Assembly: GCA_945881915.1 (NCBI GenBank)
Contig: CAMCVW010000016.1
Coordinates: 1 to 64,000, forward strand
Source: Thermoflexus hugenholtzii JAD2
Lineage (GTDB): Bacteria; Chloroflexota; Chloroflexia; Chloroflexales; Roseiflexaceae
Direction of reading: 5' to 3'
Length of the DNA stretch: 64,000 nucleotides
The notes beneath the pieces are model-generated. The model was given only the letters and a program-made list of their open reading frames with translations. It was not told where the DNA came from and searched no databases. Positions 60,226 through 64,000 of the stretch are shown here, piece by piece. Each line of letters starts with the position of its first letter. The first letter of the stretch is position 1. A program made the translations under genes and the position numbers.

Positions 60226-60345
60226 CCTAATTTGCTTCACATTGGCTATTCACAGAACACCATATTGTGATTATAGTATGATGGCGCAACGATGCGATGG
60301 ATTCGCATGATTGATTGACGAATACGCTTCGTCAAAGGAATGGCA

Positions 60346-61353
60346 ATGAATACGTCCGAACAAGAGTTGCATCAACTCTTCACGAGTGCAAGTATGGGGC
60401 AAGTGGCATATCGCACTTGGGCAAATCAGGCCCGCAAAGAACGCCGCTTCAATATCGCGCGGCTGTTCGATGCGTTGTGCACCTCGCGTGGGGCCCGTGC
60501 GGAACGAGCCTTTGCCGCGACACGCGGCGTGGGTGATACCGCACACAATATCGAAAGCTCGCTCAAAGGTATCATCCCGCTCCAGGTCGAGATGCAACGT
60601 ATTACCGGCACAACTGACCAAGCCCGTGAACTCCTCGGTCGGGCAGCACATGCAATTGCCGAACGACGTGATATGAATGCCAACGAATTGGGCGACTTGT
60701 TCGTCTGCATCACCTGCGGTGAAACGCGTGAAGGCGAACTCGTGGGGGCATGCCCTGTCTGCGGAGCTGTCCCTGAAGCACACAAGCGCTTTTTGGCTAT
60801 CGAAGCAATGGGGACGCTCGGACCCCATGGCATCATGCACGCCCTCGAACACACCGAGGGAACCCTGCGGGCGATGCTGAGTGACGTCGACGATGCGATT
60901 TTGTCGTGCCTCGGTCGTGATAAAACACCGTCGCTCAAGGAAGTGCTCGGCCACCTGAACGACATGAACTTCGTGTTCTGTGAACGCGCCACCCTCATCC
61001 TCGATACCAACAATCCCCAATTATCGTCTGCACACCCTCCCAAACTCCTGGCTGCAGCGCACTACCGCAGCCGCGACATCCGGGCGATTCTGCAGGCCTT
61101 CCATGATTCACGGCACGAGTGCCTTATGATTCTGCGTGGCTTGACCAGTGCTGCCTGGCATCGCGGCGCTGACCATGTGTCGTATGGACATGTCAATCTG
61201 CTTCACCAGGGCAATTGGATGGTCCAACACGAGCGCGCGCATCTGATTGAAATGGCACAACAGCGCCATGATTTATTGGTGGACTGCGGCAAAGCGCAAA
61301 TCGACGCCGAACGCTGTGACTTGATCGGCGAACGTGTGAATGAAGGCGAATAA
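60346..61353 (+). CDS. Rubrerythrin-like / rubredoxin-like / DinB fusion protein
   Basis: A 335-residue fusion. Residues 1-115 form a rubrerythrin-like four-helix part (ASMGQVAYRTWANQARKERRFNIARLF) in which the usual diiron EExxH ligands are not conserved. Residues about 118-145 hold a rubredoxin-type knuckle, CITCGETREGELVGACPVCGAVPEAH, which should bind one Fe or Zn. The rest, about 155-320, resembles a DinB/YfiT helical bundle (HGIMHALEHTEGTLRAML, HLNDMNFVFCERA, SRHECLMILRGLT, HVNLLHQGNWMVQHERAHL) with several His. AAAGGA lies six bases before the ATG at 60346. It overlaps the next gene by 14 bases. Redox or thiol-related function is likely but unproven. Confidence 0.7.
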   Translation: MNTSEQELHQLFTSASMGQVAYRTWANQARKERRFNIARLFDALCTSRGARAERAFAATRGVGDTAHNIESSLKGIIPLQVEMQRITGTTDQARELLGRAAHAIAERRDMNANELGDLFVCITCGETREGELVGACPVCGAVPEAHKRFLAIEAMGTLGPHGIMHALEHTEGTLRAMLSDVDDAILSCLGRDKTPSLKEVLGHLNDMNFVFCERATLILDTNNPQLSSAHPPKLLAAAHYRSRDIRAILQAFHDSRHECLMILRGLTSAAWHRGADHVSYGHVNLLHQGNWMVQHERAHLIEMAQQRHDLLVDCGKAQIDAERCDLIGERVNEGE

Positions 61354-62140
61354 AGCTCCCAAATACGCCATCGAAGAAATAACCCCCAACCACTTCATCG
61401 TCAATGATGTCCGGGTGACACCTTTTCTGCGTGGTGAGGGTGACCTCGTCGGCAATCGGTTCACGCTGACGTCTTGGCGCCGTAACGGCATGCTGGCGCG
61501 CATCGCTGAACGTGGTCTGACGGTCTATGCACTCGAGCAGATGATTGAAAAACTTCCGCATCTGCCGATGACCATCCCTATCGGTGAAGAGGTTTTTCAT
61601 CCGCAGCACAATACCACTGACCGCTATAGCTTCTTCCACCCGGTGACGTACAGCATCACCCCGTGCGAACCGTACACACATGAAGGAGTGGATGGCGTGA
61701 TTATGCGCTTGGGCACGATTATCCGTGTCCGACGCAGTCGCGGTATGACCGAGTGGTATGTCTGCCGCATGGGTGGTCGGCAACTGCAGTGGACGCACCC
61801 ACTCAGCGAACAGACCGCATTGCTGCATGGTTTTTCGCAGGCCCAGTTCGAAGCGCCAGAGTTGACCGCTTCGGTCGTTGATGATGTTGTATCCGTTGCC
61901 CTTCCGGCCCTTCCCGATGCATACGAGCGCTTGCTGCGCAAGTGTGCGTTGCCTGATGCGCAGGTACGCGCGTGGACCTTCCCGATGGCGCACGCAGTGT
62001 TTGTGGTGCAAATCCTGGCCCACTTGGGTATCACGCTCGACACCGCAAATCTCGTCCTCCCAGAACCCGACGAAGACGAAGCGGGCATTGATGACGACGA
62101 TGACGACGATGCGGATGATGAGGACGACGACGATGAGTGA
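61340..62140 (+). CDS. Unknown protein with a poly-acidic C-terminal tail
   Basis: A 266-residue protein I do not recognise. The first 235 residues look like a compact alpha/beta fold (NHFIVNDVRVTPFLRGEGDLVGNRFTL, GEEVFHPQHNTTDRYSFFHPVTYSITPCEPYTHEGVDGVIMRLGTIIRVRR). The last 25 are almost all acidic (EPDEDEAGIDDDDDDDADDEDDDDE) and could bind metal ions or basic partners. It overlaps the gene before by 14 bases and the methyltransferase gene after by eight, so the three are translated together. The weak similarity in mid-protein to cupin-like strands is not enough to assign a role. Confidence 0.65.
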   Translation: MKANKAPKYAIEEITPNHFIVNDVRVTPFLRGEGDLVGNRFTLTSWRRNGMLARIAERGLTVYALEQMIEKLPHLPMTIPIGEEVFHPQHNTTDRYSFFHPVTYSITPCEPYTHEGVDGVIMRLGTIIRVRRSRGMTEWYVCRMGGRQLQWTHPLSEQTALLHGFSQAQFEAPELTASVVDDVVSVALPALPDAYERLLRKCALPDAQVRAWTFPMAHAVFVVQILAHLGITLDTANLVLPEPDEDEAGIDDDDDDDADDEDDDDE

Positions 62141-62834
62141 CTTCCGTGACATCTATGCAGATGTCAACCATGCTCGCGCCTACCACCAACTCGTCAGTTG
62201 TGAAGATTATCAGGGTCATCTTGGGCAGTACATCCGCAGTCATGCAGATTTGTCTCAGAGCCGTGTTTTGGACATGGGCTGCGGCACCGGTCGCGTTGCC
62301 GCCCTGATGGTCGAACACTGCCGCACACTGACCGTCTGTGACGGTGCAGCGGCCATGTTGACCGTTGCGCGCGAACAGCTCCCCGCGACGGTCCGCTTCG
62401 ACGAAGCCGACAATACACACCTCCCGTACGCGGATGATTCATTCGACCTGGTGACTGCCGGTTGGAGTTTTGGACATGCCACCGAGTGGCTCCCTGGAAT
62501 TTGGCAAGACAATGTGCGGGCCGCTGTACGCGAGATGTTGCGTGTGCTGGCACCAGGCGGAGTGGCGATTATCTTCGAAACACTGGGATCTGGTGTGTCT
62601 GAGCCCGCTCCCCCCAATCAAAATCTACAGGCGTGCTACGAACTGTTCGAGCACGAATTCGGGTTCGTCTGTACCCCGCTCGTGACCGACTACCGATTTG
62701 TATCTGCAGCCGAGGCTGCCCGTTTGACGGAATTCTTCTTCGGTGTCGCCATGCAGAGTGTCGTACAGTCAGACGGAAGTGCCGTTGTGCCCGAATGGAC
62801 GGGTGCATGGCAGGTCCGGCGCACGCGGGTATAA
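62133..62834 (+). CDS. Class I SAM-dependent methyltransferase
   Basis: A 233-residue methyltransferase of the UbiE/Methyltransf_11 kind: motif I VLDMGCGTGRVAALM, motif II-like TVCDGAAAMLTVAREQLP, EADNTHLPYADDSFDLVTAGWSFGHATEW and the post-motif MLRVLAPGGVAIIFETLG. The substrate is unknown. Its start overlaps the poly-acidic gene (ATGAGTGA), and the TATAAT spanning its own stop codon is the likely promoter of murT. Confidence 0.9.
   Translation: MSDFRDIYADVNHARAYHQLVSCEDYQGHLGQYIRSHADLSQSRVLDMGCGTGRVAALMVEHCRTLTVCDGAAAMLTVAREQLPATVRFDEADNTHLPYADDSFDLVTAGWSFGHATEWLPGIWQDNVRAAVREMLRVLAPGGVAIIFETLGSGVSEPAPPNQNLQACYELFEHEFGFVCTPLVTDYRFVSAAEAARLTEFFFGVAMQSVVQSDGSAVVPEWTGAWQVRRTRV
62829..62834 (+). 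promoter_or_regulatory. -10 element for murT
   Basis: TATAAT overlaps the stop codon of the methyltransferase gene, 52 bp before the murT start. The murT leader shows no clear Shine-Dalgarno. Confidence 0.45.
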
Positions 62835-62886: not shown

Positions 62887-64000
62887 ATGCGTGAGCAACT
62901 GGCAATTTGGATGGGTCGAGCGGCGGGGTCGTTGAGCCGGCGCCTCGGGCGTGGCGGTGGAACGACGCTGCCCGGGCGTGTTGCGCGCCGGATCGCACCA
63001 GCAGTGTTGACGCACCTGACGCAGCGCCTCCCGCAGGGAGTGATTGTCGTGGCCGGCACCAATGGCAAAACAACCACCACTCGTATGATTGCCGCGTTAC
63101 TTGCTGCAGCAGGCTGGCAAGTTCTCCACAACCGTTCCGGAGCTAATCTCATCAGCGGTGTGACCGCGACCGTCATCGACGGCGTGCGCTGGAACGGGGC
63201 GTTGCCGTACGACGCTGCGCTGTTTGAATGTGACGAAGCAGCACTGCCCCAGATTGTCCGCGAAGTACAACCACGCCTCGTCGTCTTGCATAATCTGTTT
63301 CGCGATCAGCTCGATCGCTATGGTGAGGTAGATACCATCGCCGCCAATTGGCGCAGTGCACTACTGACGCTGCCAGTCAGCACCGTGGTACTCATCAATG
63401 GTGATGATCCGTCGCTCGCCCGTTTGGGGCGCGAACTCGATTGTACCGTCGTCGCGTATGGCAATGACGATGTGCACAGCGCAAGAAGCTCGGTCGAACA
63501 TCTGGCAGATGCGGGATTTTGTCGCTGTGGGAGCGCATTGGACTACCGCGTACGGTTTTTTGGGCATATCGGTCATTATTCCTGCCCGCAGTGTGGGTTT
63601 GCACGACCGGATGCAGCATACGCGTTGCGGGACGTGGTACCGCACGCACTGCGCGGCAGCGACTTGACGCTGCAGCTACCCACCGGTGACATCCGGCTCA
63701 CGTTACCGATGCCCGGGCTCTACAATGCGATGAATGCATTGGCTGCCGTGGCTACCAGCGACATCCTCGGCTTGGCACCACCGTATGCCGAGGTATTTGC
63801 CCTGTTCCAAGCGGCATTCGGTCGGTACGAAGTCGTCCAGACACCGAACCACACACTGGTGCTGGCCCTCATCAAAAACCCCGTCGGCGCAAGCGAAACG
63901 CTGCGCATGTTGACCGAAGCATGGCATTCCCGCGTACCTATGCTGATTGTCATCAACGACCGTGACGCCGATGGGACCGATGTTTCGTGGCTCTGGGATG
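62887..64000 (+). CDS. murT: MurT-type Mur ligase (lipid II isoglutaminyl synthase subunit), 5' part
   Basis: The gene runs off the window end after 371 codons. The product starts GRAAGSLSRRLGRGGGTTLPG, then the ATP loop VVAGTNGKTTTTRM, NRSGANLISG, FECDEAALP, NLFRDQLDRYGEVD and a zinc-ribbon insert (CRCGSALDY...YSCPQCG), followed by GRYEVV and INDRDADGTDVSWLWD. This is the MurT signature. With the glutaminase GatD, usually the next gene, it amidates the D-Glu of lipid II. It implies amidated, monoderm-type peptidoglycan. The start is the first ATG (62887), in a region without a strong ribosome site. Confidence 0.93.
   Translation, partial: MREQLAIWMGRAAGSLSRRLGRGGGTTLPGRVARRIAPAVLTHLTQRLPQGVIVVAGTNGKTTTTRMIAALLAAAGWQVLHNRSGANLISGVTATVIDGVRWNGALPYDAALFECDEAALPQIVREVQPRLVVLHNLFRDQLDRYGEVDTIAANWRSALLTLPVSTVVLINGDDPSLARLGRELDCTVVAYGNDDVHSARSSVEHLADAGFCRCGSALDYRVRFFGHIGHYSCPQCGFARPDAAYALRDVVPHALRGSDLTLQLPTGDIRLTLPMPGLYNAMNALAAVATSDILGLAPPYAEVFALFQAAFGRYEVVQTPNHTLVLALIKNPVGASETLRMLTEAWHSRVPMLIVINDRDADGTDVSWLWD

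Follow-up and report, generated by a model that had tools for sequence, protein, structure and literature searches.

Three overlapping genes, here called A, B and C, lie on the forward strand toward the end of the window (the whole 64,000-nt stretch that was analyzed). Gene A encodes a rubrerythrin-like helical bundle, a rubredoxin-like knuckle and a DinB-superfamily domain in one protein, gene B encodes a protein that matches no database family and ends in an acidic tail, and gene C encodes a methyltransferase (Table 1). The coordinates, reading frames and overlaps of the three genes agree with those of the first-pass annotation. An ATG at 60340, two codons upstream, is also a possible start of A. 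The start of C is most likely the ATG at 62133; a 318-aa ORF that begins at TTG 61878 is a mechanical extension. Comparison with locus L013 gives omega values of 0.043 (A), 0.067 (B, body only) and 0.066 (C), which indicates strong purifying selection on each of the genes and shows that they are not chance ORFs. The overlaps suggest that the genes may be translationally coupled. At gene A, however, overlap is weak evidence, because the partner that A overlaps varies from lineage to lineage. A murT-like gene begins 52 nt downstream of C. In a near relative (L027), argS and a gene for a HAD hydrolase come after such a gene, and no gatD was identified adjoining it.

Table 1. Features of the A-B-C locus, with positions in the window unless residues or another locus are named
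Feature	Position	Strand	Length	Remark
Gene A: rubrerythrin-like bundle, rubredoxin-like knuckle and DinB	60346..61353	+	335 aa	
Bundle of A	about residues 3-115			without diiron ligands, by alignment
Knuckle of A	C121, C124, C136, C139			rubredoxin-like CxxC..CxxC
DinB-superfamily domain of A	residues 163-303			His triad H203/H295/H299
Gene B: order-restricted orphan protein	61340..62140	+	266 aa	no database family
Acidic C-terminal tail of B	about residues 242-266			
Stretch of B coding for the last 25 residues	62063..62137	+	25 residues	20 D/E
Overlap, end of A and start of B	61340..61353	+	14 nt	
Gene C: class I SAM-dependent methyltransferase (Methyltransf_11)	62133..62834	+		genus-level neighbor of B
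Overlap, end of B and start of C	62133..62140	+	8 nt	ATGAGTGA
murT-like lipid II isoglutaminyl synthase subunit	62887..63999	+		runs off the window; outside the claimed unit
Epimerase-like gene and A in genus g12	L061:7927-9500, L062:7574-9039, L063:7472-8898			

The first-pass annotation had proposed that A, B and C form one system. Comparison of gene neighborhoods corrects this idea, and we rejected the three-gene system because in relatives the genes occur apart and with other neighbors, the outcome that the annotation itself had named as speaking against it: B stands with ruvC elsewhere, A lies apart from B in family f4, and C is a neighbor at the level of the genus only. The part of the synteny that is conserved is the A-B pair, within the window's family.

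Gene B is present in 29 of the 301 genomes of the phylum, which are all 29 genomes of the window's order, and was found in none of the 8 other genomes of the class and none of the 264 genomes elsewhere in the phylum. The gene immediately before B, in the same orientation, is ruvC in all 27 B loci from outside the window's family; the gap between the two is mostly under 130 nt and measures about 610 nt in L091 and about 705 nt in L074. Because ruvC also directly precedes B in genomes G027, G030, G036 and G039, the arrangement holds in 31 of 31 genomes outside that family. The canonical order in this neighborhood is yebC-ruvC-ruvA-ruvB, and yebC precedes ruvC in the majority of f2 and f4 loci (families f2 and f4), as well as in the window's own genome. 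The linkage of B to ruvC is absent from the window's family; in the window's genome, ruvC is followed by a glycosyltransferase-like gene and then by ruvA (L132:3483-6940, contig G000:C51). Gene B thus resembles ruvC-linked genes in its location outside the family, and differs from them in lacking any match to RuvA, RuvB or YebC and in having come apart from ruvC in the window's family. We found no report of a ruvC-yebC-linked hypothetical protein of Chloroflexus in the open-license literature. Most likely, B was ancestrally linked to ruvC. The position of B is what suggests a role in recombination, and the linkage may be only historical.

Gene A directly precedes B in 17 genomes, which all belong to the window's family, and several of them, from different genera, share the 14-nt overlap. 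Other genomes depart from this pattern. A broken A stands beside B in G021, and three genomes (G012, G016 and G017) carry B but lack a complete A; in G016, B stands beside the glycosyltransferase gene that flanks A in the window, although A itself is gone. Neither gene was shown in G001, G018 has no B and only an A match in the DinB range, and adjacency is undecidable in G020, where the genes lie on separate contigs. In family f4, B is absent from the fetched flanks of A (up to 1.5 kb) in all 18 loci. In three loci of genus g12, which belongs to f4, the gene before A is methylmalonyl-CoA-epimerase-like (VOC), and the two overlap by 4 nt.

The window's genus is the only one in which C neighbors B, and it does so there where the contig allows the comparison. 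Strong matches to C were found in 10 of the 11 genomes of the genus and in G027, whose C locus holds neither A nor B, and in none of the other genera of the window's family. The protein matches Methyltransf_11 (73.3 bits, cut-off 21.2) and the MenG/UbiE subfamily (64.2 bits). These matches liken it to the UbiE/MenG-type class I methyltransferases, from which it is set apart by falling below every NCBIfam cut-off shown.

We suggest that A, B and C are genes with separate histories that were joined in the window's lineage, namely, a scaffolded DinB enzyme, a ruvC-linked orphan and a methyltransferase of the small-molecule type that was recruited beside B within the genus, and we regard this explanation as probable. 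The A-B adjacency with its shared overlap counts against it, as it could reflect a functional link. In the alternative that builds on this adjacency, A and B would be a functional pair, such as an enzyme with a regulatory or delivery partner, and C would have been added in the genus to give a lineage-specific modification pathway. The recurrence of the overlap across genera speaks for such a pair, as does purifying selection on all three genes. However, B persists where A is broken or incomplete, retains in G016 the neighbor of an A that is gone, and outside the family stands beside ruvC in every genome, while A and B are apart in every f4 locus. We consider the functional pair unlikely.

The reading of A as a rubrerythrin-rubredoxin-DinB fusion, put forward in the first-pass annotation, is upheld by profile comparisons. 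A profile built from 14 A proteins matches the Pyrococcus furiosus rubrerythrin (PDB 3mps, 1nnq) at an E value of 1e−15 over query residues 8 to 149 and the DinB-superfamily protein BH0186 (2rd9) at 1.7e−8 over residues 163 to 303. Like rubrerythrin of the P. furiosus type, A has an N-terminal helical bundle that is followed by a rubredoxin-like CxxC..CxxC domain. It differs in its appended DinB domain, in the loss of the diiron ligands, and in the absence of some 20 residues from the second half, which carries ligands. The same annotation had noted the lack of clear iron ligands, and the alignment agrees with it. Four canonical rubrerythrins of the same phylum all keep E20, E53 and H56, and one of them has Q at one later ligand position. 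In contrast, all 14 A proteins have A, G or M at the position of E20, K or R at that of E53, and R at that of H56; all of them also lack two stretches, about 7 and 13 residues long, in which the other ligand positions lie. By this alignment, every diiron ligand is lost from the rubrerythrin part of A. A passage of PMC11926857 describes the rubrerythrin site as built from four Glu and two His. Structure prediction served B but not A, whose model (pLDDT 44.6) is too poor for use, and the claim of ligand loss therefore rests on the alignment. Because the ligands are gone and conserved Arg/Lys residues stand instead, A should not act as a peroxidase.

The four cysteines of the knuckle are invariant in the 14 A proteins, and a Pfam scan gives a rubredoxin-like match there that is below threshold. 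The rubrerythrin family PF02915 is present in 16 of the 40 genomes searched, and no match to it was found in the 11 genomes of the window's genus. In the open-license literature, we found no report of a rubrerythrin-DinB fusion and only unrelated reports for the combination of DinB and rubredoxin domains; a search there on rubrerythrins with lost or degenerate diiron ligands likewise gave only an unrelated paper.

The DinB domain, in turn, appears to keep its metal site. It matches Pfam DinB_2 with 39.2 bits (cut-off 24.8), the A protein of L061 does so with 65.0 bits, and the A profile also matches YfiT/BstA (1rxq) at an E value of 0.0034. In the relevant passage of PMC5815605, the metal-binding histidines of BstA are H67, H160 and H164. 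The corresponding triad of A is kept in 13 of the 14 A proteins, the exception being that of L041, in which two of the three histidines are lost, and in all six other fusions that were aligned. Hence, A proteins keep the DinB metal site in 13 of 14 cases and the diiron ligands of rubrerythrin in none. A resembles the DinB/S-transferase-like superfamily in this triad and in a match over most of the domain; its difference lies in the fusion of that domain to a rubrerythrin shell and a knuckle. Three further DinB-family genes stand in tandem elsewhere in the window's own genome (G000:C24:31200-33600; L139).

Enzymes of the DinB superfamily typically couple low-molecular-weight thiols to electrophiles or are related transferases or isomerases. 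Given its DinB domain, A may have a thiol role, in line with a guess in the first-pass annotation. A scores far below the cut-off of the YfiT equivalog NF009807 (23.5 against 160 bits). Bacillithiol was rejected as a co-substrate, because a search for BshC, which acts in bacillithiol synthesis, found it in none of the 40 relatives; as a control, the same search finds BshC in 3 of 14 named genomes. For MshC (mycothiol), no genome scored above the cut-off, and a short CysRS-like protein scored about 330 to 401 bits. This protein, of about 400 aa, is distinct from the longer CysRS copy and occurs in most of the 40 relatives; in the window's genome, it is encoded at G000:C18:32117-33316 (L127:6145-7341), and its 366 bits as CysRS (cut-off 340) exceed its 336 bits as MshC. 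It could belong to some cysteine-containing thiol pathway, although the tested copy scores better as CysRS. According to a passage of a commentary (PMC6336425), novel thiols have been detected in listed bacteria that include Chloroflexus aurantiacus.

Seven shorter fusion ORFs were found in distant Chloroflexota (L115 to L121). Six of them resemble A in joining a reduced, knuckle-bearing N-terminal part with both CxxC pairs to a DinB domain, and L121 has one CxxC pair only. Their N-terminal part is much shorter and more degenerate than that of A. Whether the fusions have a single origin is left undecided by the tree, in which the ultrafast bootstrap support (UFBoot) is only 68; a FastTree tree without L118 places six fusions on one side.

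Conservation of the knuckle raises the possibility that A is a redox-gated enzyme, in which an iron knuckle passes electrons to the DinB metal center or senses the redox state. It would explain why the four cysteines are invariant although the usual diiron partner of rubredoxin is gone, and why the knuckle is kept in six of the seven distant fusions. On the other hand, rubredoxin-like knuckles are often structural zinc sites, and the DinB match of A is to thiol transferases, which require no electrons; we therefore hold redox gating to be doubtful. We propose that A is most likely a DinB enzyme that depends on a metal, may be an S-transferase, and is built on a rubrerythrin scaffold put to new use. 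The three histidines of the DinB domain would probably hold a divalent metal, and the rubrerythrin module would be an inactive scaffold, probably for dimerization or for positioning the Fe/Zn rubredoxin-type knuckle.

Gene B encodes a protein that is hard to place. It belongs to no Pfam family and has no NCBIfam match stronger than an E value of 0.076. A scan of 21 B relatives returned four Pfam families, each matching a single member at 0.0023 or weaker. An AlphaFold model of B (7 sequences; mean pLDDT 81, pTM 0.71) had no Foldseek match at E ≤ 0.001, which does not show that the fold is new. When the Foldseek matches were looked at again by structural alignment, no Z score exceeded 4.8. That value came from the C-terminal third of B and an XPB-type N-terminal domain (VIA Z 4.8, rmsd 2.8, 61 residues); it is below the level of trust, and profile comparison did not back the structural match (probability 0.7%). 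A match to a trypanosome mitoribosomal protein (E 0.01 to 0.03) extends over about 60 residues rich in arginine and was attributed to chance. One scan for viral relatives of B found none. PADLOC, which searches for defense systems, matched neither A nor B and matched C to methyltransferase parts only, and a defense-system reading of the locus was rejected.

Five arginines of B (R47, R54, R129, R131 and R134) are invariant in 21 of 21 proteins. The 25-residue Asp/Glu tail that the first-pass annotation had described is real and exceptional in the window: 20 of the last 25 residues are D or E, whereas none of 51 other ORFs (non-overlapping and at least 150 aa; this set held the TTG-extended C in place of B, which was scored apart) has more than 7. 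In the comparison of the tail with L013, synonymous sites are saturated and 70% of the aligned residues are kept. Such tails are present in family f3 as well as in the window's subclade but are missing from the sister subclade of the window's genus, which implies repeated gain or loss. In f3 (L043 and L053 to L056), the Asp-rich C-terminal tail is independent of gene A.

These features invite the hypothesis that B is a partner of RuvC in the processing of Holliday junctions or its regulation, and that the acidic tail imitates DNA or masks a basic surface used for DNA binding. The unbroken ruvC-B order outside the family, the invariant arginines and the presence of acidic tails in two separate branches all fit. 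However, the window's family broke the ruvC link and lost neither gene, and neither profile nor structure comparison recognized a nucleic-acid-binding fold or a DNA-binding domain in B. Nor is B a substitute RuvA, as it has no RuvA match and a separate RuvA is present in 36 of 40 genomes. A partnership with RuvC thus seems improbable to us. We suggest that B is likeliest a cytoplasmic accessory factor, perhaps one that binds nucleic acids through the invariant arginines, whose acidic tail may shield the arginine-bearing surface.

The boldest combination, in which A founds a family where a rubrerythrin stripped of its diiron site and bearing an Arg/Lys cluster instead is the scaffold of a rubredoxin-gated DinB enzyme, and B is a new-fold RuvC-recombination factor that moved into the operon of A, is very unlikely.

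If A were rubredoxin-gated and B of the RuvC type after all, redox or electrophile detoxification would be linked to DNA repair. A is a clear and conserved case of a rubrerythrin without its metal center whose rubredoxin partner is kept in a new enzyme architecture, and because A lost the one and kept the other, the role of the knuckle without a diiron site becomes testable. B, present in every sampled member of the order, almost always behind ruvC, and without a family name or a recognized fold, is a well-defined target in the search for an order-specific DNA-repair or housekeeping factor.
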